DNA of 64,000 nucleotides, from the NCBI RefSeq assembly GCF_021531315.1, contig NZ_JAFBIQ010000011.1, positions 1-64,000 of the forward strand. The letters are read 5' to 3'. Below the pieces are notes generated by a model. It worked only from the letters and a program-made list of their open reading frames with translations, was not told the origin of the DNA and searched no databases. The position numbers and the translations under genes were made by a program. This document shows, one piece after another, positions 31,941 to 60,527 of the stretch; positions within the stretch are counted from its first letter, which is position 1, and each line of letters begins with the position of its first letter. This stretch comes from Oscillibacter valericigenes (GTDB taxonomy: Bacteria; Bacillota; Clostridia; Oscillospirales; Oscillospiraceae).

Positions 31941-31973
31941 TTTTGCGGCAGTGCCGCTGGAAAGGAGGGCGAT

Positions 31974-32285
31974 ATGCCCGGAAAAACACACATGATCTCC
32001 GTCCGGCTGACGGACGCGGAGCGCAGGAAGCTGTCGCAGATCTGCGCCGTTTCCGGCCTGCCGGTCAGCGCGGCGATCCGGGAGATGATCGGCGGTATTA
32101 CCATCCGCCAGCGGCCGCCGCAGGAGCTTCACGACCTGTATGTGGAGATCAACCGCATCGGCAAGAACATCAATCAGATCGTCCGGAAAGCCAACGCCGG
32201 TTTTGCTACGAAGGAGGATATCCGGGAACTGAAGTTTCTGATGCGGACGATAGAGACAAAAATGACAGAATTGGTGAAACAGTAA
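31974..32285 (+). CDS. mobC: MobC relaxosome protein
   Basis: A 103-aa ribbon-helix-helix mobilization protein: ISVRLTDAERRKLSQICAVS at the N-terminus and the MobC hallmark INRIGKNINQIVRKAN near residue 60. It binds oriT and helps the relaxase melt the nic region. AAAGGAGGG precedes the ATG at 31974; its stop overlaps the relaxase start (TAATG). Confidence 0.92.
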   Translation: MPGKTHMISVRLTDAERRKLSQICAVSGLPVSAAIREMIGGITIRQRPPQELHDLYVEINRIGKNINQIVRKANAGFATKEDIRELKFLMRTIETKMTELVKQ

Positions 32286-34456: not shown

Positions 34457-34477
34457 CGTATTTTTACGCAGGAGGTG

Positions 34478-37888: not shown

Positions 37889-38242
37889 TTGGAGGTCCGC
37901 ATCAACAAAGAAGTACGAAATTACCAGGAGAGTCTATTCTTCGGGCTGTCCCTGCGGCAATTGCTGTTCGCACTGCTGGCGGTCGCCGTGGCAGTGGGCG
38001 TATATTTCGGCCTGCGTCCTGTGCTGGGGAATGGGGAGATCGGCTGGGTCTGCGTGCTTGCAGCCTTTCCCTTTGCCCTGGGCGGCTTTTTTCAGTATAA
38101 CGGCATGACGCTGGAACGCTTTCTGCTCGCGTATATCCGCTCGGAATTCCTGTTTCCCCGCAGGCTCGTGTTCAAATCGGACAACATATACGCCAAAGCT
38201 CTGGAAAATTCAACGATAAAGGAGGCTCTCAAACTTGATTAA
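37889..38242 (+). CDS. PrgI-family T4SS protein
   Basis: A 117-aa protein of the PrgI/TcpE-like type: an N-terminal NYQESLFFGLSLRQLLFALL segment with two membrane helices and the C-terminal FLFPRRLVFKSDNIYAKAL. It is a membrane component paired with the VirB4 ATPase. TTG start at 37889 with GGAGGTG upstream; it overlaps the VirB4 gene by eight bases. Confidence 0.85.
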   Translation: MEVRINKEVRNYQESLFFGLSLRQLLFALLAVAVAVGVYFGLRPVLGNGEIGWVCVLAAFPFALGGFFQYNGMTLERFLLAYIRSEFLFPRRLVFKSDNIYAKALENSTIKEALKLD

Positions 38243-40577: not shown

Positions 40578-42629
40578 ATGAAAAAAATCAAAGAAAAACC
40601 CACGCTCTCTGAACGCATCAAAGAAAAGGCGATATCGACACCCAGAGAACTGCTGCACAGAGGTCTGGACGATGGCTCGGAGCGGCTGCGGACGCAGCTG
40701 CGGGATACGGCTCAGCACGGGCAGACAGATGAATATGGCGGTGACGCCATTGAGGATACCGCCGCCCGCAGCCTGCGTCGGGCAGAAAAGGAACTCACCC
40801 GGCAGCGGAAGAAGAAACCGCAGGAGCAGCCGCCGGAGGGCGGCGCTCCTGCTGCCGATGCCACAGAGCAAAAGCCTTCTGCCATCAAGGGAAAAGATAC
40901 CACTTCTGCCGGGTCGCAGCCGCAGACCGCTGCGGAGCGTGGACGGCAGCAGACGCGTCAGAACGCCGCGCAAAAAGCTGCCAAGGTCAAGACCAAAGAC
41001 GCCTATATCGGCGCACAGACAGAGACACAGGTCACAGTGGCAACGGAACCGCAGCGGCAGGGGCAGCAGGTATTCATGGAGGAACGCGGGCGCAAAGCCG
41101 CTCGATGGCAGGCAGAGCAAAAACAAGCCGTATCGCGGCACCAGGTCAAGACGGCGCAAGCCTTGCATTCAGACAGGGACGGCAGCACCATGCCCGACAG
41201 GAAACGTTCAGCACAGACTCCTCGCATTAAAGAGCGGGCGGCAACCAGCTTGCCAAAATCGGCGCGAAAACACAGCCTGCCAATGGAACGGAAAGTATCA
41301 CCGACTTTGTCTCGTTCACGCAAGACGGGCGACGCGGTGAAAGCCGCAGAGTCCGCACAGAAGCAGGCGGTCATGCTGCAAAGCAGCGCCCATGCCGCAC
41401 GGGAAGCAGTGGTGCAGACAACGCGGTATCAGCAAGCCGCGAAAGCGGCGCAGGCCACCGCGCAGAAAGCATCCCAGGCGGCGGGACGGGCGCTGCGGGC
41501 GATCCTGTCCGCCGCCAGAAGCCTTGCGGCGGCGATGATGGCGGGCGGCAGCACGGTCCTCTCAATGGTGTTAGTCATCTGCCTGATCGGGCTCCTAATC
41601 GCGTCACCGTTTGGGATTTTCTTTTCCGGTGAGGACAGCGGCACCGGATATACGATGCCGGAGGCTGTGACTATGCTGAATACAGAGTTTACAGACCGCA
41701 TCGAGCAGATCAAGGCGGAGAATCCGCATGATGAATTGGATATGGACAACGCCGGCAGCGCCGCCATGATCTCCAACTGGCGGGATGTGCTGGCTGTTTA
41801 TGCTGTGCGGACAACGACAGATGCATCGTCGCCGGACGAGGTGGCGACGCTGACGGAAGAAAAGCTGGATATTCTGCGGCAGATTTTCTGGGATATGAAC
41901 GCCATCTCTTATTGGGTGGAAACCATCTCAGGCGACAAGGATGAAAGCGATACCGCCATCCTGCATATCACCGTCACGGTAAAGGATCACCTGCAGATGG
42001 CGGATGAGTACCGATTCACCGCAGATCAGCGGAAGCTGCTGGAAGAACTCATGCAGCCGGAGTATCAGGAACTATTCGCGGCGCTCACCGGTAGCTACCA
42101 GGACATTGAGCTGAGTCCCGACGAGGTAGCGAAGATCATGGAAAACCTCCCCGCCAATCTCAGCGAGGCACGCAGAGAAGTTGTGCTGACAGCATATCAG
42201 CTCTTGGGCAGAGTCCATTATTTTTGGGGAGGAAAATCTTTGGTAATCGGCTGGGACTCCCGCTGGGGAATGCCGATGGAGGTCACAGCCGAGGGCAGCT
42301 CCACCACCGGCACTGTGCGGCCCTTCGGACTGGATTGTTCGGGAATGGTGGATTGGGTATTCTACAACCAGAGCGGCGGACAATACGTCATTGGGCATGG
42401 CGGCGGGGCCACTGCGCAGCACAGCTACTGTACGCCTATTGCTTGGAGTGACGCCCAGCCGGGAGACCTTGTCTTTTATCCGGGTGACAGCCATGTCGGC
42501 ATTGTTTGCGGCTTTGACAGCGGCGGTAATATCATGATCATCCACTGCGCCAGCGGCGCGAACAATGTGGTGGTTACCAGCAAGGAAGGATTTACTGCCG
42601 TTAGCAGACCCTTTTACTACAGTAAATAG
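40578..42629 (+). CDS. NlpC/P60 conjugation cell-wall hydrolase
   Basis: A 683-aa protein: a long charged, low-complexity N-terminal region (1-300) rich in Gln, Arg, Lys and Ala, one membrane helix (VLSMVLVICLIGLLIASPF), then a C-terminal NlpC/P60 peptidase with FGLDCSGMVDWVFYNQSG (catalytic Cys) and PGDSHVGIVCG (His). It cuts peptidoglycan to let the mating channel cross the wall. Last gene of the T4SS operon, seven bases after VirB4. Confidence 0.92.
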   Translation: MKKIKEKPTLSERIKEKAISTPRELLHRGLDDGSERLRTQLRDTAQHGQTDEYGGDAIEDTAARSLRRAEKELTRQRKKKPQEQPPEGGAPAADATEQKPSAIKGKDTTSAGSQPQTAAERGRQQTRQNAAQKAAKVKTKDAYIGAQTETQVTVATEPQRQGQQVFMEERGRKAARWQAEQKQAVSRHQVKTAQALHSDRDGSTMPDRKRSAQTPRIKERAATSLPKSARKHSLPMERKVSPTLSRSRKTGDAVKAAESAQKQAVMLQSSAHAAREAVVQTTRYQQAAKAAQATAQKASQAAGRALRAILSAARSLAAAMMAGGSTVLSMVLVICLIGLLIASPFGIFFSGEDSGTGYTMPEAVTMLNTEFTDRIEQIKAENPHDELDMDNAGSAAMISNWRDVLAVYAVRTTTDASSPDEVATLTEEKLDILRQIFWDMNAISYWVETISGDKDESDTAILHITVTVKDHLQMADEYRFTADQRKLLEELMQPEYQELFAALTGSYQDIELSPDEVAKIMENLPANLSEARREVVLTAYQLLGRVHYFWGGKSLVIGWDSRWGMPMEVTAEGSSTTGTVRPFGLDCSGMVDWVFYNQSGGQYVIGHGGGATAQHSYCTPIAWSDAQPGDLVFYPGDSHVGIVCGFDSGGNIMIIHCASGANNVVVTSKEGFTAVSRPFYYSK

Positions 42630-42632
42630 CGT

Positions 42633-42672
42633 CAGGGGCTGTCTCAGAATATTTGCTCTGGGACAGCCCCTG
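42633..42672 (+). terminator. Terminator of the T4SS operon
   Basis: CAGGGGCTGTC / GACAGCCCCTG arms (11 bp) with an inner CAGA/TCTG pairing, followed by TTTATTTTG, right after the NlpC/P60 stop. Confidence 0.9.
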
Positions 42673-42755
42673 TTTATTTTGATGTACCGCAGCACGTTAT
42701 TATCCTATGTGTGTCCAGCCGCCCTCAGCTTTGACGGTATAGGCGTCGGGTGTAA

Positions 42756-42961
42756 CTAACCGCCAGGGGTATTATTGCTACCGCCACCACTACTGCCTCT
42801 GCCGCTGCTTACCAATTTGGGAATGCTCTCCGTCTTTGTGGCCTTGCAAATCCCACAGGTGTAAGTTTTGACGCCTGTTTTTTCATGGGTAGGTGCAGTT
42901 GTCACTTTACCCTCGCCTGTATAGACGCCGCTGGAATTGACGCTTACGTTACCGGGTGGTT
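42756..42961 (-). pseudogene. C-terminal remnant of a Cys-pair surface protein
   Basis: On the minus strand an open stretch of about 67 codons without a start reads like VSVNSSGVYTGEGK, then KTYTCGICKATKTESIPKLV and a Gly/Ser-rich end. An in-frame TAA lies just upstream. The CxxC unit resembles the tandem ribbon repeats of the SLH protein at 15070. It is probably the decayed tail of another surface protein. Confidence 0.6.
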
Positions 42962-43060
42962 ACTGAGCACTTACACAGCTTACCAAAGAACGGCGGCAGG
43001 GAATCGTTGATTCCGAGCCGCCGTTCTGATTCACTTTGGGTTACCCGTCAGTCGCTACCC

Positions 43061-44722
43061 TTACTTGCCCTGATAGGCACGGAACAGGAAGGTCACGATC
43101 TGGGCGCGAGTGCAGCCGTTGTCGGGGCTGAACGTAGAGTCCGTCGTACCGTTAGTCACGCCGTTTTCCACAGCCCAGGCCACTGCGTCAGTATAGAAAG
43201 CATTGGCCGCCACATCGGTGAAGCCAATTGCCGTGGTAGGTGCGGTACCCAGCGCGCGGTACAGGAACGTCACGCTCTGGGCGCGGGTGCAGGTGGCGTT
43301 GGGGCTGAAGGTGCCGTTGCCGGTACCGGTAGTGATGCCCTGGCTCAGTGCCCAGCGGACAGCCTCCGCATAGTAAGCATCACCGGGAACGTCCGTCAGA
43401 TCCATGGCGTAATTCACCACGGGAGAACCGGCCGCACGCCACAGGAATGTCACGATTTGAGCCCGAGTACAGGGCTGGTTGGGTCCAAACAGGCCGTTGC
43501 CGATACCGCCGGTGATGCTCTCCTTAGCGGCCCACTTCACAGCGTCATAGTAATAGGCGCTGGAGGGAACGTCCACGAAGTCCATGGCCTTGATCTCGGC
43601 GAATTCAGCGGAAACCGTCACCTTGGAGGCGGGCATGGTAAAGGTAAACTTGCCGTTGCCCTTGTCCTTCACCTTGATCTTGCTGCCACTGGCGTCTTTC
43701 ACGGTCAGGGTGTCCAGCTCATAGCCGCTGTCGGGCTTGACCGTAATGGTCACGGTATCGCCCGCCTTGGCGTTCTTGGGATCAACGGTCACATCGCCGT
43801 GCTTGACAGAGGGCGCGGAGACGTCATAGCGTCTGGTGGAAGAGCTGGAACCGCCTCCGGAGCTGCTGCCGCCACCGCCGGTGCTGCCACTGCCACCGGT
43901 GCTGCCGCCGCCCGCAGAGGGACCGCCGGTGCTACCGCCGCCCGCAGAGGGGCCGCCGGTGCTACCGCCGCCCGCAGAGGGGCCGCCGGTGCTGCCACCG
44001 CCCGCAGAGGGGCCGCCGGTGCTGCCGCCGCCCGCAGAGGGGTTGCCAGTGCTGCCACTACCCGCGGAGGGGTTGCCAGTGCTGCCACTACCCGCGGAGG
44101 GGTTGCCGGTGCTGCCACTACCCGCGGAGGGGTTGCCGGTGCTACCACTACCCGCGGAGGGGTTGCCGGTGCTGCCACTACCCGCGGAGGGGTTGCCAGT
44201 GCTGCCACTACCCGCGGAGGGGTTGCCGGTGCTAGTCTCACTAATACCACCAGGCACGACAGATACACTGATCTTAACATTTGATGCATTCTTAAAGGTG
44301 GTCGTTTTAAGAGTCACGTTCGCGCCGCTTGAACAGTCTGCCTTCACGGTGAATGTCAGAGTAAACAGCATACCGTCCTCCGCACACTCTTTTTGAGCAG
44401 CATCAGCAACGAAATTCACCTTTCCAGTATTTACATTTTCAGTAAAATTTCCGTTAATGCCTGCTTTTTCAATCTTTTTCAGTGCCAATTTGCTAGCATC
44501 GTACTGGACAGTAAAATCAAATGCCGCAAAGCCGGGATTGTTCGCAATGGAAACCTTCAGTTCAACTTCCTCACCCTCTTTGACTGCTTGCTTTACAGTC
44601 TCGACGGTGATCGTGGTCGCACTGCCGTTATCAGTGCCAGCTGCCATAGCAGGGGTGATCGCCATTGTGAACACTACCACTACGGAAAGAAGCACCGATA
44701 ACCAGCGTTTTGCATTCTTCAT
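43061..44722 (-). CDS. Cohesin-domain protein with SLH anchor
   Basis: A 553-aa secreted protein. A signal peptide (AITPAMAAG) is followed by a cohesin-like domain (about 30-165): VEGVELKVS-type strand region seen as EEVELKVSIANNPGFAAFDF, VQYDASKLALKKIE and GMLFTLTFTVKA. A 10-residue Gly/Ser/Pro repeat linker comes next (11 copies), then a bacterial Ig-like/Listeria-repeat-like domain (VTVDPKNAKAGDTVTITVKP) and three SLH repeats. Cohesins bind dockerins; SLH repeats bind the cell wall. With a dockerin protein encoded next to it, this looks like a one-site anchoring scaffoldin. GAAAGGAAC precedes the ATG at 44722. Confidence 0.88.
   Translation of the reverse strand: MKNAKRWLSVLLSVVVVFTMAITPAMAAGTDNGSATTITVETVKQAVKEGEEVELKVSIANNPGFAAFDFTVQYDASKLALKKIEKAGINGNFTENVNTGKVNFVADAAQKECAEDGMLFTLTFTVKADCSSGANVTLKTTTFKNASNVKISVSVVPGGISETSTGNPSAGSGSTGNPSAGSGSTGNPSAGSGSTGNPSAGSGSTGNPSAGSGSTGNPSAGSGSTGNPSAGGGSTGGPSAGGGSTGGPSAGGGSTGGPSAGGGSTGGPSAGGGSTGGSGSTGGGGSSSGGGSSSSTRRYDVSAPSVKHGDVTVDPKNAKAGDTVTITVKPDSGYELDTLTVKDASGSKIKVKDKGNGKFTFTMPASKVTVSAEFAEIKAMDFVDVPSSAYYYDAVKWAAKESITGGIGNGLFGPNQPCTRAQIVTFLWRAAGSPVVNYAMDLTDVPGDAYYAEAVRWALSQGITTGTGNGTFSPNATCTRAQSVTFLYRALGTAPTTAIGFTDVAANAFYTDAVAWAVENGVTNGTTDSTFSPDNGCTRAQIVTFLFRAYQGK
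43901..44234 (-). repeat. Coding minisatellite, 30-bp units x 11
   Basis: The linker of the cohesin protein is built of 30-bp units coding STGNPSAGSG (6 copies), STGNPSAGGG (1) and STGGPSAGGG (4). Units are nearly identical in DNA, so copy number may vary between strains by slippage or recombination. Confidence 0.92.
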
Positions 44723-44784
44723 GTTTTTTGTTCCTTTCTTTATAAAAAAGTGTTGTATCACAAGATACACAAATTGGGGATTCT

Positions 44785-44822
44785 CCCACCAAAGGATGTG
44801 GAAAACTGCATCCTTTGGTGGG
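44785..44822 (-). promoter_or_regulatory. 14-bp stem hairpin between dockerin and cohesin genes
   Basis: CCCACCAAAGGATG and its exact complement around a 10-base loop, in the 111-base gap between the two genes. There is no T-run on the minus strand after the stem, so it may be an mRNA-stabilising or partial-termination structure setting the ratio of the two proteins. Confidence 0.7.
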
Positions 44823-44833
44823 AAAGTGAGGTG

Positions 44834-47800
44834 TTATTCCTCGTAGCCAGCCAAACGTCTCTGGAGCGTCCACGCATCGAAAATGTCAACATCGCCGTCA
44901 CTGTTCACATCGCTATTGGCGTAAATAAAGCCTTCGACCTCATATCCCGCAAGATAACGGCACAATGCATAGACATCGAAAATATCAACCTCGCCGTCGC
45001 CATTCACATCGCCCATCACAAAGACAGTTTCCGCAAAAGTCACGTCCAATTTTGCGATACGCTGTGTGAGCCAATTCTGCATATCTGCAAAAACCGAAGC
45101 ATAGGTGGCGTTCTTCCAAATGTGTCCGGCATTGCTCGGATCTCCCACACGGATATACGGCCAGAGGACGAAGTTCATTTCCGCACTATCTGTCAGGCAG
45201 TCCGCATAACCACGGATTGTACCGTTCTCCGCGATCAGAGCATTGGCTTGCGGAGCAAATATCTCGTTATAGTATGCGATGACGGCCTCCCGGAAGTCGG
45301 GGATCTGGATCAGCGCTTCCGCCAGATAGTGATAGTCGGTCGTGTCCGGTGAGATATACTTGCTCCAGCCGGTACCGAGCGTCATGTCCTGATCCCAGAT
45401 GGGACCGGCATACATGATCCCGTTGGCATCCTTGTAGAAATAGAGCGAGGAAATAAAGCCGTCCGGACTCAGCGCCAGTTCCTGCAGCAGGAAGATCTTC
45501 ACGAGCGAATCACGATCAACATAGTCGTAATAGTGCTTGCCGTCCTCGTTGATGCCGGTGTAATTGCCGTTTCCGTCCGTGGCATAGACCGCATTCTCAA
45601 ACGCCTGATAATACTCGCTGATGTACTTCATAGCTGCATCACCGCACCATTCGGGGCTCTTGACATTGACGCCCTTGCCCTGTTTGGTCACAAATCCGTT
45701 GACCTCATCCGGTGCGTTGTGGTTCAGCTCCAGCAGGTATCCGCCCGTGATGTCGGTCGGGTCAGTAAGGCCGGTCGTATAGGTATAGCTCCCGCCATAG
45801 GCATTGGTGCCGGTTGAGGTGCTCATATTCGTACCATACGCCGGATTCAGATCCTCGTACGCCGCTTCCAGATCGGTGATATTGATGCCGGTATCCTTGA
45901 CCGCATTCTTTTCGCTCAGCAGATACACGCCGCGATACTCACCATCGTAGTACAGGTTCACCCAATCGCAGCTCGCTGTATAGGGCATTCCCAAAGCAGC
46001 CGCCATGTCCTTGAACAGCTTGTCATGCATCAGTGTAGCGTCGAAGTAGTTTGCCAGCAGCACCCACGTCTTCACGTTCTCGCCGTTTTGCAGCAGATCG
46101 GAGGCCGTTTCCAGCTTCATCTGATAGGACTTCTTCGCAGCGTAGGTAAAGGTGGAATTGCCGCGCGCCTTGAGTTCTTTGATGCCCATCGTACTGATCT
46201 CGCTGCCAGCTGTGTCGATCATCTTGAGCGCCGCCGTCGTGGTGTTCTGCTTGCTGCTATCCACATAGCTGCGTCCCTGCGTTTTTGCATCCGTGCTGGT
46301 CAGATAGATGGTCGGCAAGCTCGTCGCCTGCATGATGCGGACGGTGAACGCTGTGCCGTTTCCGACTTTTGCAGTCAGGAGGCGATAGCCGTCCGTCTCA
46401 GAAGCCAGAGCGGAAACATTCAGTGCAGCAGCATCGCCGGTAACGGGCTGGCTGCTTTGATTGCCCGCAACCACCAGACTGCCGTCATTAGCCGAACGCG
46501 TGATGGTGACATTCAGGTTCGCAAGATCTGCCGAGGCAGGCAGGAACAGGTAATTTGTACCGTCCACATCGACCGCCGGAATCTGCATGCCGTCTACCGT
46601 GGCAGTCATAGCCGTTACATCTGCCGAAAGAGGAGACGTTGTTGCACAGAGGATATTGGACCATTCTATACTGTAGTAGACCTCGTTTTCTGTCGGAACC
46701 TTAGTCCGGCCAGCCGCTACGAAATAATACGCTGTGTCCGCACTCAGCCCCGTGACTTTAAAAGTGGTATTCTCAGTGGTTCCCAACGATGTACGGTTTT
46801 GGCCCTTCTCGTCGCATTGGAAGACCTCATAATACCCCGCACCGGGGGCCGCGTTCCATGCAAGGGTCAGGGAATCTACCGTAGCAGCGGTGCATTTCAA
46901 ATCCTCCACATTGTTCGGAACAATGTAGTAGGTCAGCGTTTTATCGCCGTAGTAATTTCCTCGGCCTGAGCATTTGATCTCGGCCTTGCCGACATTCTTG
47001 CTGTCCGGCCATTCCACATATAGATCGGGAATCTGTCCGTTGATGAGGTTGGCGTCATTGTTCTGCGTCAGCACATAGTCATCGCGTTTGGCAAAGCTGC
47101 CGGGACGAACACCGGTGCCGGTGTAATAATATTTGGGGGCCGGTTCGATATCGCGAGGCTTTTCAGGGCTTCCGAATTTGAAGACGACATCTTCGCTGTT
47201 GATATCGATGCCGTGGAAGCCGCAGACGGTGCAGATATGTTTCTCATCCCACTTGTGTTTCTCGGGCATCTTAAATGCCGAGGTATCCGTTTGCTGACAA
47301 GCGGGACAGGTATAGGTAATATAGCCGCCGGTTACGCAGGTACGGCTGTCGCTCTGCGTGGTAAGATGGGCATAGCCGTCCGTGCAGGAGTGGTATCTGT
47401 CCTCCCCCTGAGAAGAGAACTCGTTCTTCTTGACGCTGCCGCTTGCGAGGATGACCTGTTTGCCGTCTGTGGTAGAGAGCAGACCACTGAAAGCATAGTC
47501 GCCTTCAGGTTTCAGTGCCGTGCCGCAGACTGCGCAGGAAATCGTTCCAGCGGTCATATCGTACTTGCTGGTGCCATTCACCGTGTGCTTGCCCAACTCG
47601 CAGTCGGTGCGCGTTTTGGTGTAGGTGTCCAGCTCTTTGCCATTGACATCGATCGCCTTGACCGTGAAGGATTCCTCCGTCGCGTTCACCGTGAGGTACA
47701 TACCGCTGTAGCCGCTTTTGTCATTGTGCGGAATGGCTCTCGCATACTCCTCACGGCTATGCAATTCATAGTTCTTTCCGCTCAAATCGCCGCAGACAAA

Positions 47801-50800
47801 GTACACAACGCCGTTTCGGCTGTTTTCCGCCTGCTTCACGCCGCCGAGCATGGGATAGGTGCGGGCGTAGGCATGGTCATCACCGCCGAAGACGAAGCTG
47901 AAGCCTGCCTTCTCAATACTGGCAAGGATCGCCGGTGTTGCGGAAACGGACTCGGTGCCATAGATGGGCTCGTGCGACACGAGTACCTTCCAGACGCAGT
48001 CGGTGGTCAGATTCTCTGCAATGTCCGCCAACGTCTCAGAGAGCTTCGTGCCATGGTTCACGACGACTACACAGACCTTGCCGTATTCCATTTTGTACCA
48101 GCTGTTCTGCGCGCTCTCAGGCAGATCATAGATTGCCTTGCTGATCTTGCCATCCGCATCGCCGTAATACTCATGGTTGCCCAGCACATGGATCAGATCC
48201 ACTCCGCCCAGCGTACCGCTGTTGACCGCATTCAGGAACGGGCGGCAATGCGTTTCATACATTGTCACATTGTCGATGGCATCGCCGGTCTGAACACCGA
48301 AGTCATAGCTTTCTGCTTTCAGCTTTTCCAGCGCTGCAGCCAGATTTGCTGTGTCGCCTGTTTGAATGTCGCCCAGGATGAAGAAGTTGGTGGCTACCGC
48401 GTCCGCGGCAGGCATTTTAAAGCTCTGCGTATTAGACCAAGTAGCGCCATCACCCACCTGATAGTAGTAGGTGGTGTCTGGTGCCAGATTGGTAAGCGTT
48501 ACCTTGTTGCTCCGCAGCGCATCGCCGCGGGTGCTCTGCACAAAGGTCTGGATCGCGGAGGTTCCATCCACCGTAGCGGCGCCGTTGAGTTCGGCATCGG
48601 TGGAATACTTCACCTGTGCCTTTTCCGCAGAGCCATCGATCTGGGTAAGCCAGGTAATGCTCTTGGTTCCCGCTTTCGTCACACCGTTGGTGAGGATACC
48701 GAAGGGCTTGCCGCCGTTCTCAGTCGTCCTTTCGCAGACGATCACGCGCTGGTTCCAGGAGCGGCCGCTGCCGGCCTTTTCGGCATAGAAGGTGTATTCG
48801 CCCGCCGTGTCAAAGGTTTTGGTAAATGTACCCTTCATGTTGGTGCTGCCCAACTTATGGCTGCCATCACTGCTCACCTGATAGATATCCGCACGGGAAA
48901 TAGGCTTGCCGTCGGCATCCGTTACGGTCAGTTCGGCAGACATCCCGGCAATGGCCTGCTCACAGGTGAGCTGATAGCTTGCCGTCATGGGGACAACCTT
49001 TTCTGTGCCGGAGAAGGTATAAGCCGTTCCAGTTTCGGTACCGTCCGCGACGGTGTAGCTGCCCTGCGTCACCGTGCATTTCAGCACGCTGTCCGATGCG
49101 GCATTTGCAGGAATCGTGATGATGAGATAACCCAACTCGGAAACATAGTTGTAATCCGTGTCCTGCGCACCGGTACGCATCGCCCGCCGCGCCTGCGTAA
49201 CTGGCGGCTTTGTGACCGTGATTTTGGCAAGTCCCTTTTCCAAAGCATTTTGATCCAGTGTCAGCGTATAGTCGCTGCTGAGTGACTCGACCTTAGCGCC
49301 CGCAAGATACTCCGCAGCGTTGCCCATGGCGCGGAAATCCACCGTCAGCTCTGCCTTTGTGACAGGCTCGCCAGTGTTATTTACGATAGCAAAGACGTAG
49401 TCTTTGCCGATCTCCGGCGGCTCGGGCTGGGGCAGAATATCAATGGCAGACTGCATCCCCTTTGCGTCCTCCACACGGAAGGTGCGTGTTTCGGTGGTCA
49501 CGTTGCCGTAGAAGTCCTTGAGCCGGACAGTGAGCGTATGCGTGCCGTTACGGAGCGCCACGCCCTTGAGGTAGAGGGAACCGTCATTAATCTCCAGCTT
49601 GCCGGTATAGTCCGTACCGTCCAGCAGCACGCGGATACCGCTCTGGTCAATGCCGGTGGCGTACTTGTCGGTCAGCTCGCTGTCGGAATAGACGGCGGAG
49701 AAGCTCAGATTGCCGCTCGGCAAAACGGTCGTTCCGCGTGCATCGAGCACCGTGCCGTTGCCAGTCTCGGTGATGCTCTCCAGCACCGGCCGGGTCACGT
49801 CGTTGGTGTTCGTGCCGTAGATGAACTGGAAATTATCAATGTAAATATATCCCGAGCCTTTTTTACAGTTCTGCGGAGAAGTTATGCGAATAGCATAGGC
49901 GCGGCACATATCAACTGGCATCTGAAGCGTTGAAATATCCGCCTCGACCCAAGTCCACCCCTTTCCTGCCCAGTCAGAAAGCGTACTACCACTGACAGTT
50001 CCATCTGCGTTGTAGCTCTTGTACTGGAAATAGCTTGTAGTACCAACCAGTTGGCCATCAAAATACGAAGTTGAACCATCCTCATTTATTGCCATATGAG
50101 CTGTTGGAGTCAGAGTCCCGCTCTCCGTTGATGCACCGCCTTTCAGAATTGCTTTTAGCAGTGTTTTGTCGCCGTCAAAACTTGATGGTACGTTGATCCA
50201 CAAGCCGAGTTTGGTCGGCTGCAGCGTGTTCAGCAACATATCCCCAGAAAAGCCAAAATCAGCAGACATTGGCTTTGCTAAGTTTTGTTCGCCGCCAAAA
50301 TTGAATCCAATCTTGAAAGCGTACTGCCCAAAACGGACATTCTCATCTTCGTCGGCGCTGACGACCAAATTGCCGTCATTTAAGAATTGGACACCCTTAC
50401 CGCTGGTGTCGCGGATCCAGATTCGATCCGCCCGGACTTCCTCTGGTGTCAGATAGTTGTTGTCTCCTGCGCCGTTGGACTTGCCTACATGGCAAGTCCA
50501 ATAGTCTGTTGCAGAAACCGTTCCTTCGTCTCCGACGTGATCTTCAAAGTCCATGATAACATATGGTTCCATGCCGACAACAACATCCACATGTCCTGTG
50601 ATATTAGGATTCTGGATCAACGCAACCTGTACAGTAGCACGCAAAGAGGTGTCGCTATCTGCAACGAACGTATTGCTAATGAATTTCCCCAGAATAGCAG
50701 AATGTACGTTGCTGTTTTCGCCTTGGATTATGGTCGCATTGACCTGTTGCGTTCCATCTGTGTTCGCCAAAAGCTCGAGATTTGTTACTTTGTAGACTTT

Positions 50801-52222
50801 CCCATTTACCTTCATATCTTTGTTCAAGATTTCCGGAGTAACTGCCATTTTATATTTGGTCGTTCCGTTAATCTCAACAACGGGGCTGAATTTATAATAT
50901 GTCGGTGTCAGCGTCCACGCAAAGTCTCCATCCTTATAATGGACCGCTCTGCCCTGCCAGGTAGGCTTGAAGGTCAGGTCGCTCGTCTGGCCAAAATCAA
51001 TGGAGACGCTGTTGTTGGTGAAGTCCAGCTTATCCGGCCACTGCACCTGAATTCTGGTCTGGCCAATGGTCTTGCCGCCGGCCTTCAGACCGACTTCGAC
51101 CTCGCCGCAGGTATCGGCAGCCGTGTAAAGGCCATTCGCATTGATGCGGCCATTGCCGGAGAGAACCGCCCAGGAAGCACCTTCGGGAATTTCCGCCTTG
51201 CCGCCGGCGGCGTCAATGCCGGTCGCTTCAAACTGCACAGTGCTGCCGGGGGTATAGACTTCGTCATTGGGCGTCAGCACCGCGTGGTCAAACTGACCTG
51301 TGGGCTTCGCCGTGGAGAGCACCATGATGGTGTTGGACACCTTACGCTCGTAGCCGTCGGACGGACGGCAGCGCAGGGTCAGACCGGCGGTGCTGCTTTC
51401 CGGCTCGCCCTCGCGCTGGGTGGCGAAGGTCGAGGAGCCGCCGCCATCCAGATTAATGGCCTGCACGCAACCCAGATCTTCCATGGAGGCCGCAACCTCT
51501 GCCATGGTCATGCCGACAGAATAGGGTGCCTGACGACCATCCACCATGAACATCACCACCGAGCCATCCGCCTTGATGCCGATGGCCGTGCGGGAGGCGC
51601 GGGTGACGTTGTCCAGACCGCTGCGGGCATGGCCATTCTCAAAGATATCGCCGAAGCTGGCGACCGCTTCCAGAACATTGCCTGCCGCATAGGCGGCGTT
51701 GCACTCCTGCGCGCTGGTGATGTGCGCATCGCCGCTCTTGTCGATCCAGAAGGTGGTGCCGGTCGGCGCGTTGATCTGCGTGCCGCTCATGATGAAAGCA
51801 CCACTGGGTCGGCCATTGCTCATGTCGTAGCCGCCGGCATTGATCGCGCCCACAACATTGGTGTTGCGGCGGGTCTGCATGCTCTGCGCCTGCTTGGTCG
51901 TTTCCGTCATGGCCCAGTTTCTGCCGGTTTTGATGGTTTTGATATCATCATCACTGTAACCGGCCGCAATGGAAGCTGTGGAGCCTTCGCCCACTTTGAC
52001 CTCCATCACATGACCCATCATCTGCTGGGTCAGTGCGCCATTGTTCAAGATCCATTCGTATTCCTTGACATCGGGTGTCATGGCATATTCCTTTTCGGAT
52101 ATCTGCCGGATACCCAGTCGGTCAAGTCCGCCGCTACTTGCGTTCTCCGCTGCCTGAACCTGTGCCGGTAGCAGTGATGCCGTCAAACAGAATGTCAGCA
52201 GCAGCGAAAGCAACCTTTTCAT
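44834..52222 (-). CDS. Giant secreted dockerin protein: phosphodiester glycosidase, metallophosphatase, CotH kinase
   Basis: A 2462-aa secreted protein with a signal peptide (LPAQVQAAE). Domains in order: NAGPA-type phosphodiester glycosidase (about 100-310; AINLDGGGSSTFATQ); Ig/lectin-like modules to about 1170; a purple-acid-phosphatase-type N-terminal Fn3 domain and metallophosphoesterase (about 1175-1530; ILGDIQTGD, VLGNHEYYGD, FVFGGDDHAYAR); CxxC units; an Fn3 domain (about 1775-1860); a CotH-like kinase domain (about 1965-2395; LKARGNSTF, PIWDQDMTLG); and a type I dockerin (2400-2462; DVNGDGEVDIFDVYALCRYL and DVNSDGDVDIFDAWTLQRRL). GGAGGAG precedes the ATG at 52222. Likely docked on the neighbouring cohesin protein. 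No frameshift seen. Confidence 0.9.
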   Translation of the reverse strand: MKRLLSLLLTFCLTASLLPAQVQAAENASSGGLDRLGIRQISEKEYAMTPDVKEYEWILNNGALTQQMMGHVMEVKVGEGSTASIAAGYSDDDIKTIKTGRNWAMTETTKQAQSMQTRRNTNVVGAINAGGYDMSNGRPSGAFIMSGTQINAPTGTTFWIDKSGDAHITSAQECNAAYAAGNVLEAVASFGDIFENGHARSGLDNVTRASRTAIGIKADGSVVMFMVDGRQAPYSVGMTMAEVAASMEDLGCVQAINLDGGGSSTFATQREGEPESSTAGLTLRCRPSDGYERKVSNTIMVLSTAKPTGQFDHAVLTPNDEVYTPGSTVQFEATGIDAAGGKAEIPEGASWAVLSGNGRINANGLYTAADTCGEVEVGLKAGGKTIGQTRIQVQWPDKLDFTNNSVSIDFGQTSDLTFKPTWQGRAVHYKDGDFAWTLTPTYYKFSPVVEINGTTKYKMAVTPEILNKDMKVNGKVYKVTNLELLANTDGTQQVNATIIQGENSNVHSAILGKFISNTFVADSDTSLRATVQVALIQNPNITGHVDVVVGMEPYVIMDFEDHVGDEGTVSATDYWTCHVGKSNGAGDNNYLTPEEVRADRIWIRDTSGKGVQFLNDGNLVVSADEDENVRFGQYAFKIGFNFGGEQNLAKPMSADFGFSGDMLLNTLQPTKLGLWINVPSSFDGDKTLLKAILKGGASTESGTLTPTAHMAINEDGSTSYFDGQLVGTTSYFQYKSYNADGTVSGSTLSDWAGKGWTWVEADISTLQMPVDMCRAYAIRITSPQNCKKGSGYIYIDNFQFIYGTNTNDVTRPVLESITETGNGTVLDARGTTVLPSGNLSFSAVYSDSELTDKYATGIDQSGIRVLLDGTDYTGKLEINDGSLYLKGVALRNGTHTLTVRLKDFYGNVTTETRTFRVEDAKGMQSAIDILPQPEPPEIGKDYVFAIVNNTGEPVTKAELTVDFRAMGNAAEYLAGAKVESLSSDYTLTLDQNALEKGLAKITVTKPPVTQARRAMRTGAQDTDYNYVSELGYLIITIPANAASDSVLKCTVTQGSYTVADGTETGTAYTFSGTEKVVPMTASYQLTCEQAIAGMSAELTVTDADGKPISRADIYQVSSDGSHKLGSTNMKGTFTKTFDTAGEYTFYAEKAGSGRSWNQRVIVCERTTENGGKPFGILTNGVTKAGTKSITWLTQIDGSAEKAQVKYSTDAELNGAATVDGTSAIQTFVQSTRGDALRSNKVTLTNLAPDTTYYYQVGDGATWSNTQSFKMPAADAVATNFFILGDIQTGDTANLAAALEKLKAESYDFGVQTGDAIDNVTMYETHCRPFLNAVNSGTLGGVDLIHVLGNHEYYGDADGKISKAIYDLPESAQNSWYKMEYGKVCVVVVNHGTKLSETLADIAENLTTDCVWKVLVSHEPIYGTESVSATPAILASIEKAGFSFVFGGDDHAYARTYPMLGGVKQAENSRNGVVYFVCGDLSGKNYELHSREEYARAIPHNDKSGYSGMYLTVNATEESFTVKAIDVNGKELDTYTKTRTDCELGKHTVNGTSKYDMTAGTISCAVCGTALKPEGDYAFSGLLSTTDGKQVILASGSVKKNEFSSQGEDRYHSCTDGYAHLTTQSDSRTCVTGGYITYTCPACQQTDTSAFKMPEKHKWDEKHICTVCGFHGIDINSEDVVFKFGSPEKPRDIEPAPKYYYTGTGVRPGSFAKRDDYVLTQNNDANLINGQIPDLYVEWPDSKNVGKAEIKCSGRGNYYGDKTLTYYIVPNNVEDLKCTAATVDSLTLAWNAAPGAGYYEVFQCDEKGQNRTSLGTTENTTFKVTGLSADTAYYFVAAGRTKVPTENEVYYSIEWSNILCATTSPLSADVTAMTATVDGMQIPAVDVDGTNYLFLPASADLANLNVTITRSANDGSLVVAGNQSSQPVTGDAAALNVSALASETDGYRLLTAKVGNGTAFTVRIMQATSLPTIYLTSTDAKTQGRSYVDSSKQNTTTAALKMIDTAGSEISTMGIKELKARGNSTFTYAAKKSYQMKLETASDLLQNGENVKTWVLLANYFDATLMHDKLFKDMAAALGMPYTASCDWVNLYYDGEYRGVYLLSEKNAVKDTGINITDLEAAYEDLNPAYGTNMSTSTGTNAYGGSYTYTTGLTDPTDITGGYLLELNHNAPDEVNGFVTKQGKGVNVKSPEWCGDAAMKYISEYYQAFENAVYATDGNGNYTGINEDGKHYYDYVDRDSLVKIFLLQELALSPDGFISSLYFYKDANGIMYAGPIWDQDMTLGTGWSKYISPDTTDYHYLAEALIQIPDFREAVIAYYNEIFAPQANALIAENGTIRGYADCLTDSAEMNFVLWPYIRVGDPSNAGHIWKNATYASVFADMQNWLTQRIAKLDVTFAETVFVMGDVNGDGEVDIFDVYALCRYLAGYEVEGFIYANSDVNSDGDVDIFDAWTLQRRLAGYEE

Positions 52223-52281
52223 ATGATCTCCTCCTACAGTATATGTTTTCTGCGGCTCCCCGCAGTTGAGCACCTATTATA

Positions 52282-53400
52282 TTAGTGTGTCGGTTTCTCC
52301 GGCTGCCCGGCTAAGATCGTCGTACATTGGCTCAGCGGCCTGCCTGCGCAAACAGGGCAGCCGCAGCGCTGTTTTCCTGTACGGCTGCTGATGACCACTC
52401 TCCACGCGTGGCCGTTTTCACACAGCCACCAAGCCTTCCGGCTGCTGCCGGGCGTCACCTGGTGCGGCGTGAAGTTGCCGTTAAGGGTCGGATGCCACTG
52501 CGACGCGATCACCGGCTCCTTGGTTTCCAGATCATTAAATCCAGGCAGGACCTTGCGGTTGGTGCAGTACGGGCAATCGCTCCCCTTGTTCACACGATGG
52601 GCGATGACCGCACAGAAAGAATGTCCCTTGTCACAGAGCCACCACACGCGGCGATTGGAATATACGCTCACTGTCTCCGGTGTCAGCGCACCGTTCTTTT
52701 TCCGGTCCCACTGTTCAGCAAGCCGCGGATGCAGTGAAGCGAGATCATTGAATCCGGACAGGACCTTTTGTCCCGCGCAGAACGGACAGCCTGCGTTTGA
52801 TGTGACGCGGCTGGCAACGCTCGCCTGCCAGCTATGCTTTTTCGGACACCTCCACCAAACCTTCCGATGCGCTCCCGGCATGACCTGCATCGGCAGCAGT
52901 GGGGAATTCTTTTCTGTATCCCAGTCCGAAAGCAGATCAGGGAATTTTGCCGCCAGGGAGTTTTCCTCCGGCAGAATAGCTCGGCCCGCACAGACGGGAC
53001 AGCCCGTCCCTTGTGTGCGGCTTTTAACTGCAGAGCGGTAAGAATGTCCTTTAGCGCATCGCCACCATACAAGCCTTCGGCTGCCAACCGTCAGCTCAGA
53101 GAATTGCAACGGGCCATTCTTCTCTGCATCCCATTCCGGCTCAAGCTCCGGATGGCACATTCGCAGGGCCTCCTTTGGCTCTGCCAGACGTCCTGAGCAG
53201 TATGGACATCCGCTGCCGGCGGAGCGAGAATAAATCTTTGCCTGCCAGTGATGCCCGCTGGCACAGTACCACCATACCTTTTGGTGGCTTCCGTAGGTCA
53301 CATCTTTCGGCGTGAGCGGCGCATTGCGTTCATCGTCCCATTGTGCCAGCAGGTGAGCTTGTTCATGCCCGGCGCAGAAATCGTACAGAGACGGACGGAT
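52282..53400 (-). CDS. Tandem treble-clef zinc-finger protein (DUF4379-like)
   Basis: A protein of about 372 aa built of five to six repeats of roughly 65 residues, each with WWxCxxGHxW, then CPxCxGR, then an EWDxEKN segment (for example KVWWRCPKKHSWQASVASR and GCPFCAGQKVLSGFNDLASL). These are zinc-binding treble-clef fingers thought to bind nucleic acid. The frame opens upstream of GTG 53301; GGGAGGTG lies seven bases before an ATC at 53400, which completes the first repeat and may be the real start. Its role in the surface island is unclear. Confidence 0.8.
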   Translation of the reverse strand: MRPSLYDFCAGHEQAHLLAQWDDERNAPLTPKDVTYGSHQKVWWYCASGHHWQAKIYSRSAGSGCPYCSGRLAEPKEALRMCHPELEPEWDAEKNGPLQFSELTVGSRRLVWWRCAKGHSYRSAVKSRTQGTGCPVCAGRAILPEENSLAAKFPDLLSDWDTEKNSPLLPMQVMPGAHRKVWWRCPKKHSWQASVASRVTSNAGCPFCAGQKVLSGFNDLASLHPRLAEQWDRKKNGALTPETVSVYSNRRVWWLCDKGHSFCAVIAHRVNKGSDCPYCTNRKVLPGFNDLETKEPVIASQWHPTLNGNFTPHQVTPGSSRKAWWLCENGHAWRVVISSRTGKQRCGCPVCAGRPLSQCTTILAGQPEKPTH

Positions 53401-53609
53401 TGCCGCTCACCTCCCGCAGAATAGTTGGCCGCCTGCAACACAGGCGGAAGGGTCTTTTTTAGCTGATCGTGTATCCGGCACAGTGGCTAAAAAAGTACGT
53501 TTTTTTAGTCGGATTGAAGCCGTTGGCCTATTGCTATTCTGTTGGGGGAGTGCTATGGTAGATGTATAAGATTTTGTGTATATCGCTGTGGTCGGCAACC
53601 TGTACTTTT
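53401..53609. other. Spacer between zinc-finger and resolvase genes
   Basis: No gene. CCGCCTG/CAGGCGG (53432-53450) forms a hairpin followed on the plus strand by a T-run (TCTTTTTTAG), a possible terminator. Confidence 0.45.
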
Positions 53610-54239
53610 TTATCCAGTCTTCTTCGTCTGCGTTTTCTTAACGGCTTCTTTGCACCCGTCATCCTGCGCCCAGAGCAAAAAGCTCCGGTGGGTGACGCCC
53701 AGCAGTCTTCCTGCCGCACGTGCAGACAGCTCGCCGCGCTCCCAACGCGCTTTGACTTCGCCGAACCCTTCTGGCAGCGCCTTGCGGGGTCTGCCGAATT
53801 TCACGCCGCGCGCCTTCGCTGCGGCGATCCCTTCCGCCTGCCGCTGGTGAATGAACTCGCGCTCTGTCTGCGCCACATAGGATAGCAGCTGCAGCACGAT
53901 GTCCGCGATCAACGTTCCGGTGAGGTCGCGATTCCGCCGCGTGTCAAGCAGAGGCATATCCAGCACAACGATTGCCGCACTCTTTTCCTTTGTGATGATG
54001 CGCCATTGCTCCAAAATTTCTTCATAGTTTCTGCCAAGACGGTCGATGCTCTTGATCACAAGCGTATCGCCGTCTTTCAGTTTGCGCAGCAGCCGCTGGT
54101 AGCTGCGGCGGTCAAAATCCTTGCCGGACTGCTTGTCCACAAAAATCGCCCGGTCCGTTAAACCGAATTCCCGCAGAGCGATGAGTTGGCGCAACTCATT
54201 CTGTTCCTTGGTCGAAACTCTTGCATAACCGTATTCCAT
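53610..54239 (-). CDS. Serine resolvase/invertase
   Basis: A 209-aa small serine recombinase. The catalytic motif is GYARVST (Ser9), followed by DRLGRNYEEIL and the E-helix, then a C-terminal helix-turn-helix (ELSARAAGRLLGVTHRSFLL). Such enzymes resolve cointegrates or invert DNA between short sites. GGGAGGTC precedes the ATG at 54239; a longer upstream frame is not supported. Its promoter region overlaps operator-like inverted repeats shared with the divergent XRE gene. Confidence 0.92.
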   Translation of the reverse strand: MEYGYARVSTKEQNELRQLIALREFGLTDRAIFVDKQSGKDFDRRSYQRLLRKLKDGDTLVIKSIDRLGRNYEEILEQWRIITKEKSAAIVVLDMPLLDTRRNRDLTGTLIADIVLQLLSYVAQTEREFIHQRQAEGIAAAKARGVKFGRPRKALPEGFGEVKARWERGELSARAAGRLLGVTHRSFLLWAQDDGCKEAVKKTQTKKTG

Positions 54240-54301
54240 GTGCTGACCTCCCAATTTATCGGTGGATAAATTGTAAGCCAGGTGCCGGCCACATGGACAA
54301 T

Positions 54302-54356
54302 ATAGTGTTATATCACTATTATAGCACATATTTTTCTGTTAGTGAAGTATCACTAA
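54302..54356. promoter_or_regulatory. Operator pair and promoter between resolvase and XRE genes
   Basis: Two inverted repeats share the half-site TAGTG/CACTA: ATAGTG-N6-CACTAT (54302-54319) and TTAGTGA-N4-TCACTAA (54339-54356). For the resolvase, minus strand, TATAAT (54318-54323) and TTCACT lie 17 bases apart, and each overlaps one of the repeats. A third half-site (ATAGTGA) follows near 54383. Binding of the XRE protein would block the resolvase promoter. Confidence 0.75.
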
Positions 54357-54411
54357 TAACCTTTTCTCAAATAATTTACCATAGTGATAAATCGTCATGG
54401 AGGTTTACACT

Positions 54412-54654
54412 ATGGATACTCGGGAAACTGTTGCACTTCGCATCCGCCAACTTTGCGCAGAACGAAAAATTACACCGAACGGATTAGCAAATCTGTCTGC
54501 CGTTCCTCAAGCAACCATCAAGAGTATCCTTAATAATGAAAGTAAAAATCCGGGCGTCGTGACGATTAAGAAGCTTTGTGATGGTCTTGACATTACCCTC
54601 GGTGAGTTCTTCTCCACGCCTGAATTCGATACGCTGGAACAGGAGATCAAGTGA
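54412..54654 (+). CDS. XRE-family repressor
   Basis: An 80-aa HTH_3 protein: LRIRQLCAERKITPNGLANL, then VPQATIKSILNNESKNPGVV and IKKLCDGLDITLGEFF. It is divergent from the resolvase and faces the TAGTGA operators, so it probably represses the resolvase and itself. The ATG at 54412 follows GGAGG with nine-base spacing; the upstream ATG contains that site and is unlikely. Confidence 0.9.
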   Translation: MDTRETVALRIRQLCAERKITPNGLANLSAVPQATIKSILNNESKNPGVVTIKKLCDGLDITLGEFFSTPEFDTLEQEIK

Positions 54655-54698
54655 AGCCTCTTTCTCAGCCTCTACCGCCAGCGCTCCTCCATTTTTTC

Positions 54699-54733
54699 GC
54701 GTAGAGTACACGCATAGTGCGTGAACTCTACGC
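54699..54733. repeat. 35-bp near-perfect palindrome
   Basis: Two 16-base arms (GCGTAGAGTACACGCA versus the complement of TGCGTGAACTCTACGC, one mismatch) around TAG. It lies between the XRE and WYL genes and could be a WYL-protein operator or a terminator-like hairpin. Confidence 0.75.
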
Positions 54734-54842
54734 TCTATACGGGGCATTCTCTCATTTTCACGGAAAATCTTCCATCCGCTGCTGCGTTTGACGGTTACGT
54801 ATTGCGGCCGCGCCGTTTCCCATTTGAATGGAGTACAGCTAC

Positions 54843-55802
54843 ATGAAAAATGAATCCCAATATGGTCTGCTGCTTCTCCGGCAATATCTATATCGGCAGA
54901 CAGACGAGCAGCATCCGGTCTCGGTCACGGACATTCTCGCATTCTGGCAGCAGCACGGCATTCAGGCCGGACGCAAGAGTGTTTACACCGACATCGAACT
55001 GCTGCAGAACGCCGGGATGGATATCGTCTGCGTCAAAAGCACCCAGAATCGATACTTCGTGGGGGAGAGGCTGTTTGAACTGCCGGAGCTGAAGCTGCTG
55101 GTGGATGCGGTGGAATCCTCCCGGTTTATCACGGAGAAAAAGAGCACCGCCCTCATCAAGAAGCTGGGCCATCTCACCAGCACAGCGCAGGCGGAACAGC
55201 TGAACCGCCGCATTTACATGGGCGGCACTCCAAAGCCGGAGAATGAGAGCATCTACTACAATGTGGATACCATCCACAACGCCGTCCAGAAGAAACAGCA
55301 AATCACCTTCCAGTATTTTGAGTACACGCCTAAAAAGGAAAAGATACTCAAGCATGATGGATACAAGTATCGGTTCAGCCCCTACGCCATGATCTGGAAT
55401 CGGGACTGCTACTATGCCGTAGGCTGGTCGGAAAAGCATGGAAAGATTGCACAATTTCGGGTGGACCGCATGACGGCAGTCGAACCGCTGGAACAGACGG
55501 CAGTCCAGACACCGGATTTTGATCCGGCGGAGTATGTCCGCAAGGTGTTTGGGATGTACCCGGACAACCTCTGTACCGTAGAGCTGCTGTGCGATAATGA
55601 GGTCATGCGCAGCGTGATCGACCGCTTCGGTGAAAATGTGCAGACGGAAACTGTAGATGAACAGCATTTCCGTGCCACAGTCGAGGTCGCGCCAAGCCCT
55701 CCGTTCTTCAGTTGGGTCTTTACCTTTAGCGGTAAGATTCGCATCGTCAGCCCAGCAGCAGTGCTGGAGGAAATGCGGGATATGGCAGCGTGGCTGAAAT
55801 AA
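54843..55802 (+). CDS. WYL-domain transcriptional regulator
   Basis: A 319-aa regulator with an N-terminal winged helix (LLLLRQYLYRQTDEQ, then GRKSVYTDIELLQNAGMDI) and a WYL domain in the centre (YRFSPYAMIWNRDCYYAVGW and GKIAQFRVDRM), plus a WCX-like C-terminus. WYL proteins sense nucleic-acid or nucleotide ligands and regulate mobile elements and defence loci. The start at 54843 is preferred to ATG 54828. Confidence 0.9.
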   Translation: MKNESQYGLLLLRQYLYRQTDEQHPVSVTDILAFWQQHGIQAGRKSVYTDIELLQNAGMDIVCVKSTQNRYFVGERLFELPELKLLVDAVESSRFITEKKSTALIKKLGHLTSTAQAEQLNRRIYMGGTPKPENESIYYNVDTIHNAVQKKQQITFQYFEYTPKKEKILKHDGYKYRFSPYAMIWNRDCYYAVGWSEKHGKIAQFRVDRMTAVEPLEQTAVQTPDFDPAEYVRKVFGMYPDNLCTVELLCDNEVMRSVIDRFGENVQTETVDEQHFRATVEVAPSPPFFSWVFTFSGKIRIVSPAAVLEEMRDMAAWLK

Positions 55803-60459: not shown

Positions 60460-60527
60460 TGCTGGATATTCTGCGGATCGTGTGGTAGCTTGTGTGTTGA
60501 CAAAAAAGATACAGGGAAGTGAAAAAC

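Follow-up and report, generated by a model that had tools for sequence, protein, structure and literature searches.

The use of cohesins and dockerins outside multi-cohesin scaffolds has already been described. Pairwise cohesin–dockerin links between glycoside hydrolases, together with one cohesin and one dockerin in a GH31 protein of Akkermansia, are reported in PMC12997984, and a Ruminococcus albus with one cohesin protein in PMC4081043, which also places positions 10 and 11 of the dockerin loop among the recognition positions. At the cell surface, OlpA and OlpC of Clostridium thermocellum combine CohI with SLH modules and would be able to bind DocI enzymes (PMC4045903). A survey of 305,693 prokaryotic genomes (PMC11557425) names single-cohesin proteins of unknown function as well as SLH-anchoring, non-SLH anchoring and monovalent adaptor scaffoldins. 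Its criteria are a protein with at least two cohesins and a dockerin glycoside hydrolase, a design that leaves out any genome in which there is only a one-to-one pair. The cip-cel operon has intergenic stem-loops that direct how its RNA is processed and in what ratio its subunits are made (PMC10311766).

Here, we analysed a 64,000-nucleotide stretch of Oscillibacter valericigenes DNA (the window) that encodes, in adjoining genes, a cohesin protein with SLH repeats (P0001) and a giant, predicted secreted protein ending in a dockerin (P0002). By its domains the pair resembles the known OlpA-like anchoring scaffoldins. In P0001, as in OlpA and OlpC, a cohesin is joined to SLH repeats and could hold a dockerin protein directly at the surface. 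OlpA, however, sits in a full cellulosome, whereas the window pair comprises the one Pfam cohesin and the one Pfam dockerin of its genome, side by side, with a client that is not a cellulase. The scaffoldin classes of PMC11557425 have the same domains as the proteins found here, and its types occur behind this one giant. PMC12997984 and PMC4081043 describe hydrolases linked to one another, or a lone cohesin alongside dozens of dockerins; in the window, by contrast, an anchored socket stands beside its one client, and that client has homologues anchored in cis. In the open-licence literature we found no paper joining a dockerin with an integrative conjugative element and, by title or abstract start, no anchored one-to-one cohesin–dockerin pair. 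Peer and colleagues have reportedly worked on non-cellulosomal cohesins.

Methods

Domains were assigned with Pfam profiles, and signal peptides of P0001 and P0002 were judged by eye only. P0002 was searched in 394 genomes of the order, 400 of the family and GTDB contigs. Left out of the homologue counts were the partial homologues G510 (SLH-like end) and G603 (neither end), both read by eye, and the more distant partial homologues G430, G183 and G359, the last SLH-ended. In the full-length L095, unknown bases fill a stretch near the end; it was left out of the domain scan. An unrooted tree of ten sequences was built from the common core with IQ-TREE and FastTree. Genomes with exactly one cohesin and exactly one dockerin at E ≤ 1e-4 (n = 12) were picked out by reading the tables by hand; G125 (dockerin E 3.4e-4) and G104 (cohesin at 34.8 bits in the genome search, not recovered by hmmscan of the protein at E ≤ 0.001) were left out of this count. 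For structure prediction, AlphaFold was given an alignment of 9 rows for a 270-residue chain of dockerin, linker and cohesin in which the one TAA stop was read through.

Table 1. Features of the window and related units. Positions are those of the window unless a locus is named.
Feature	Position	Strand	Basis and remarks
Relaxase	31895-33691	+	Conjugation gene
VirD4-like coupling protein	34475-36211	+	Conjugation gene
TraG/VirB4-like ATPase	38235-40571	+	Conjugation gene
NlpC/P60	40578-42629	+	Conjugation gene
Anchoring cohesin protein P0001, 553 aa	43061..44722	-	One cohesin, then a linker of Gly/Ser/Pro repeats, Flg_new_2 and three SLH; by eye, the N-terminus is signal-like
Flg_new_2 and three SLH repeats (cell-wall anchor)	43064..43828	-	Pfam
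Tandem array, 30-bp unit, 11.3 copies, encodes linker	43896..44233	-	TRF
Cohesin domain, residues 37-160	44243..44614	-	Pfam PF00963, E 7.6e-16
RNA stem-loop, 15-bp perfect stem, no T-run after it	44784..44823	-	Folding, covariation
Giant secreted protein P0002 (secretion by eye), 2462 aa	44834..52222	-	NAGPA, PAP-N, Metallophos, fn3, CotH, dockerin
Type I dockerin, residues 2404-2457, two calcium-loop repeats	44852..45013	-	Pfam PF00404, E 2.6e-9
CotH kinase domain, residues 2018-2388	45059..46171	-	Pfam, E 2e-23; conserved stretches
Purple-acid-phosphatase N domain and metallophosphatase, residues 1183-1452	47867..48676	-	Pfam; GHxH reads GDDH
NAGPA phosphodiester glycosidase domain, residues 122-301	51320..51859	-	Pfam PF09992, E 1.3e-31
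DUF4379 zinc-ribbon protein, between resolvase and giant	52282..53301	-	Also in G576
Small serine resolvase	53610..54329	-	Homologues upstream of giant in G576 (95%) and POC01 (76% over 195 aa)
35-bp imperfect palindrome, 30/35 positions self-complementary, upstream of resolvase	54699..54733		One copy in window, one in G576 element
WYL-domain regulator	54828..55802	+	In G470 and G124 directly after NlpC/P60, opposite orientation
Large serine recombinases	60519-62081, 62891-64531 (second runs past window)	+	Pfam; 62078-62887 left out of scan
Cohesin-SLH/dockerin units	L093 5920-7739, L071 6614-8533, L092 4423-6285		G005, G024, G121; similar order in G097

The gene pair and its domains

Both reading frames are open and adjoin on the minus strand, the P0001 gene lying 111 bp downstream of the P0002 gene (Table 1). 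The preliminary description had recognized the two as adjoining genes on one strand, the first for a cohesin protein and the second for a giant closed by a type I dockerin and carrying phosphodiester glycosidase, metallophosphatase and CotH domains in place of cellulases. Pfam bore out each of these assignments, the domains lying where they had been placed. The cohesin scores 59 bits (cut-off 24.1), covers profile positions 2–137 of 139 and matches the PDB scaffoldin chains 5lxv_A and 4ums_A in phmmer (E ~5e-5); Flg_new_2 (residues 299–377) and the three SLH repeats (E 1.9e-37) also exceed the curated cut-offs. With cohesin and SLH in one protein, and secretion judged by eye, P0001 is by its predicted domains an SLH-anchoring (OlpA-like) scaffoldin. 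Its repetitive linker array could change length, and hence the reach of the socket.

The dockerin of P0002 scores 37.6 bits (cut-off 22.9) over profile positions 2–56 of 57, and in the alignment the acidic ligand pattern is kept in both calcium loops; against solved dockerins it gave a weak match (best E 0.0026 for the chain). NAGPA reaches 110.5 bits (cut-off 25; profile 2–168 of 169) and its DGGGS motif is kept in all ten aligned homologues. The predicted kinase domain CotH (PF08757; 83.8 bits, cut-off 23.8; profile 2–318 of 322) has many positions invariant among the homologues, and fn3 is also present. Pur_ac_phosph_N was found at residues 1183–1269 and Metallophos (PF00149) at 1280–1452 (E 2.2e-10); the latter exceeds its cut-off (41.7 against 21.5 bits), but its set of metal ligands is incomplete. 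Metallophosphatases of this family usually have a GHxH motif, and this position is altered in 9/10 aligned homologues (GDDH in the window, GDDN in POC01). Because the usual histidine is missing, the phosphatase activity of P0002 is uncertain. A two-step scheme is attractive, with NAGPA uncovering a phosphate for the phosphatase to take off, but its second half is open to doubt. Of the phosphate chemistry first proposed, the metallophosphatase part is weakened; the NAGPA and CotH domains retain their motifs. Residues ~401–800 form a hypervariable stretch without a Pfam family, with 48–49% protein identity between the window copy and that in genome G576, compared with 72–98% elsewhere.

In the AlphaFold model of the read-through chain, calculated from 9 alignment rows, pLDDT was ~80 for the dockerin and ~30–50 for the cohesin, with a pTM of 0.35; the cohesin part of the model was unusable.

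Putative sockets and mounts at four loci

Dockerin-ended giants were found in the window, G576, G730 and POC01; core identity to the window giant is 78, 68 and 56% for the last three, respectively. A cohesin gene lies directly downstream on the same strand in all four (gaps of 111 bp in the window and 115, 115 and 100 bp in the others), and the cohesins of G576, G730 and POC01 are 61, 63 and 37% identical to that of the window. What is mounted behind the cohesin varies. In the window it is SLH; in G730 it is a sortase-like tail, the socket having CBM_X2 and an NPQTG-plus-hydrophobic tail that resembles a sortase signal by eye; in G576 and POC01 a dockerin adaptor is followed by a third protein.

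The G576 adaptor (481 aa) consists of cohesin and dockerin (48.4 bits), and the third protein (677 aa) of a cohesin-like N-domain, Big_2, Flg_new_2 and three SLH repeats. This N-domain resembles cohesins in hhalign (90%, E 1.4e-6, from two sequences); Pfam gave no cohesin there at E ≤ 1, and the two-sequence profile gave no solved cohesin at E ≤ 1 in the PDB sequence search. POC01 has the same order, with an adaptor dockerin close to the detection limit (hmmscan 22.4 bits, genome search 23.4 bits; cut-off 22.9) and a third protein with Big_2 and without SLH. This third protein (L096 18874-21670) ends next to the gene for a large serine recombinase, as though its anchor had been lost to an insertion. 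The C-terminus of P0001 is 55.8% identical to that of the G576 third protein and 28–33% identical to another SLH protein of the window. This closeness suggests that P0001 may have arisen by losing the middle of the two-gene arrangement.

Dockerin positions 10 and 11 read I-F in both repeats of the window, G576 and G730 giants and T-S in both of POC01. The adaptor dockerin of G576 reads A-A in both repeats (by eye) and should therefore need a different cohesin.

A long stem-loop occupies the gap between giant and cohesin at all four loci (z −5.8, −5.8, −5.0 and −4.0). Among the three sequences from the window, G576 and G730, 12 of the 17 main-stem pairs show a double change with pairing kept in at least one sequence, and four have a gap or break in one; the POC01 hairpin is unrelated in sequence and sits at another spot. 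As in the cip-cel operon (PMC10311766, PMC4423207), the stem-loop lies between the cistrons of a putative cohesin/dockerin operon; there, selective RNA processing and stabilization are described, whereas the window stem-loop was characterized by structure and covariation. The giant and socket genes would be co-transcribed and, on the cip-cel model, the stem-loop would set the ratio of giant to socket protein.

C-terminal anchors of the homologues

Matches to P0002 at E ≤ 1e-100 were found in 11 of the 400 family genomes. Scanning the GTDB contigs with P0002 alone gave no relative, and with a three-row alignment six loci; in plasmid and phage collections the matches were partial, no single place accounting for more than 55% of the query, at 24–43% identity. 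Ten homologues, window included, are full-length: four end in a dockerin, four in SLH (G119, G005, G531 and L094, the last weakly at 23.1 bits), one in neither (L099) and one (L095) is unreadable there. SLH is likewise the ending of three homologues that are shorter or cut: G541 (1409 aa, without metallophosphatase, adjoining another partial match), G578 (1164 aa, with fn3 and CotH only ahead of the SLH end) and G626 (truncated at the start of its contig).

The alignment of P0002 to the G119 and G005 proteins runs through CotH and breaks off where the dockerin begins. G005 belongs to the genus of the window, with an rpoB region 94% identical. The dockerin forms make up one clade (UFBoot 100, FastTree 1.000); because the tree is unrooted, a direction from SLH to dockerin is only inferred. 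A Pfam search of the G119 genome gave neither cohesin nor dockerin. Other genomes with the cis-SLH form do hold such domains elsewhere, namely two cohesins and one dockerin in G005, one and two in G541 and one dockerin each in G531 and G578. Since several relatives have a built-in anchor, the dockerin and cohesin most likely stand in for it.

Cohesins and dockerins across genomes

The genome of the window (2.48 Mb in 122 contigs, 98.9% complete) has a sole Pfam cohesin and a sole Pfam dockerin at E ≤ 0.01, and both are in this pair. Chance adjacency of one such pair (within 2 kb on the same strand, assuming 2 Mb) is ~0.001 per genome. At E ≤ 1e-4, cohesins occur in 48 and dockerins in 66 of 149 genomes (relatives and the own genome). 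Seven of the 12 one-plus-one genomes, that of the window among them, have the two domains in separate reading frames on one strand and no more than 2 kb apart; in the other five they are on different contigs. The seven represent at most five independent cases, because G121 and G139 share a genus and G000 and G048 hold homologous pairs. G730, by comparison, has six cohesin and six dockerin matches at E ≤ 0.01. The window cohesin had no relative in the viral contigs, where the dockerin DNA motif occurs in at least 120 stretches; among the 120 listed stretches and the six GTDB loci, the only cohesin match was POC01's own.

In G011 (two cohesins, six dockerins) a dockerin M14 carboxypeptidase adjoins a cohesin-SLH protein, and in G103 a dockerin Big_3/SH3 protein adjoins a cohesin with a hydrophobic tail (by eye). 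A unit of a cohesin-SLH protein of ~370–410 aa followed by a dockerin protein of ~204–224 aa recurs in three genomes (Table 1).

The conjugative element

The surrounding genes include a relaxase, a coupling protein, a VirB4-like ATPase and a recombinase and so, judged from gene content, make up an integrative conjugative element; the contig ends at 67.7 kb. The same element is found in G576, a member of another genus, with DNA identities of 95.2% over 27.3–42.6 kb and 95.9% over 54.8–63.5 kb, against 77–83% in the rpoB region, indicating recent movement of the element from one genus to another. In the window the pair is inserted, together with the DUF4379 and resolvase genes, between the backbone genes NlpC/P60 and WYL. 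The G576 pair occupies the same place, inverted as a block, with 87% DNA identity over the aligned part of the giant gene. G470 and G124 have a colinear related backbone in which WYL comes right after NlpC/P60; neither has the pair in ~39 kb each, and the idea that the pair is fixed cargo of the element family was rejected. No element backbone was found around the pair in G730 (37 kb) or in POC01 (27 kb); in the latter, no more than a relaxase (24% identity) and a recombinase (25% identity) belonging to another element turned up. Thus, two of the four pairs are element-borne, both in the same element, and three are resolvase-linked. Delivery by a conjugative element, as originally suggested, fits a pair lodged in the backbone of an element common to two genera, and does not extend to the two pairs outside it; a survey of related elements, also suggested, recovered the pair in the G576 copy but not in the ~39 kb each of G470 and G124.

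A resolvase homologue was not found near the G730 giant or in the stretches covered around the nine homologues that lack a dockerin, nor the DUF4379 gene in the 27 kb of POC01. The resolvase sites (window 53610-54329, L230 15978-16694 and L096 9142-9726) lie in two genomic contexts, as if a cassette were moving.

The block that is inverted relative to the G576 element measures ~12 kb (cohesin, giant, DUF4379 and resolvase; window 42600-54750). Among the 25 longest of 38 pairs of inverted repeats, none joined the block ends, and when the ends were compared directly, the matches in either genome were short and weak. A simple phase switch, and with it reversible inversion, is therefore not supported. 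The resolvase end has the 35-bp palindrome, to which no match was seen at the other end.

Two further SLH proteins lie near conjugation genes. One (1088 aa, window 15070-18336, plus strand) adjoins a Toprim gene upstream of the conjugation genes, and the other (1876 aa) is in the G470 locus (L078 4230-9860).

Discussion

We consider it probable that the two proteins work as a two-component anchor for putting a single giant on the surface, with binding and display predicted. The giant would be secreted, and its C-terminal dockerin (the plug) would bind the single cohesin (the socket) of the neighbouring protein, whose SLH repeats would hold it on the cell wall; plug and socket would replace the SLH repeats carried at the C-terminus by other homologues. 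Some observations run counter to this reading: cohesin and dockerin are on different contigs in five of the 12 one-plus-one genomes, L099 ends in neither anchor, some genomes with the cis-SLH form hold cohesins or dockerins elsewhere, and the adaptor dockerin of POC01 is near the cut-off. Once displayed, the giant might act on phosphate-linked surface or environmental glycans, with NAGPA perhaps freeing sugar from a sugar-phosphate diester and CotH perhaps phosphorylating a protein. The system is not a cellulosome: the genome has one Pfam cohesin where a scaffoldin would have two or more, and one dockerin protein, with NAGPA, Metallophos and CotH, where several dockerin enzymes acting on plant polymers would be expected. 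The self-contained surface complex of the preliminary description gains from the uniqueness of the pair and from the cohesin gene beside every dockerin-ended giant; the relatives, however, point to a replaceable anchor for one giant and not to a new architecture.

The pair might instead be the remnant of a larger cellulosome-like system, with other proteins or cells as partners and the adjacency merely historical. Many genomes of the order do hold cohesins or dockerins, the close pair carrier G730 has six matches to each, and longer chains exist, since the cohesin proteins of G576 and POC01 also carry dockerins. We nevertheless regard this as quite improbable, given that no other Pfam cohesin or dockerin is present in the own genome, that the gene order is kept at all four homologous loci, that one recognition dyad is common to both dockerin repeats and that the mount is exchanged while the cohesin stays. 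Chance neighbourhood of a functionless dockerin is far less credible still: four homologous loci keep the same order even though their cohesins are only 37–63% identical to that of the window, and seven of the 12 one-plus-one genomes (at most five independent cases) have the two linked.

Two other readings concern the form of the anchor and the work of its cargo. A chain of three tiers, in which the giant's dockerin binds a cohesin/dockerin adaptor that in turn binds a second cohesin on an SLH protein, would make the window a shortened or fused version. This is compatible with a two-part anchor, doing the same job with one more joint, and we hold it to be a real possibility, though not the likelier one. 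The adaptor and SLH-bearing third protein of G576, the same order in POC01 (without SLH) and the closeness of the P0001 C-terminus to the G576 third protein speak for it; on the other side, the second cohesin is seen by hhalign from two sequences and not by Pfam or the PDB search, and the mounts of G730 and the window are each complete in a single step. We think it unlikely that the giant works chiefly as an adhesin or surface protein with enzyme domains that are in part inactive. The altered GHxH position and the divergence of residues ~401–800 between element copies would suit an adhesin, but the NAGPA motif is kept throughout and CotH retains many invariant positions.

If the two-component anchor is real, a mobile element with both halves could display its cargo in a new host. 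The socket protein alone would change (SLH, sortase-like tail or adaptor chain), re-fitting the cargo to other envelopes and leaving the giant gene untouched, and the resolvase beside three of the four pairs would make giant plus socket a cassette in itself. Homologues whose SLH is built in offer a natural control, being related proteins anchored in cis or via the plug. Surveys asking for multi-cohesin scaffoldins would miss such pairs. We propose tentatively, at somewhat less than even confidence, that cohesin–dockerin is a general plug-and-socket for single large surface proteins in Oscillospirales-like gut bacteria, of which the element ships both halves. The pair would show that cohesin–dockerin binding, familiar chiefly from cellulosomes, also serves one-to-one as an anchor that can be exchanged, and that surface proteins can travel on conjugative elements together with their own fitting.
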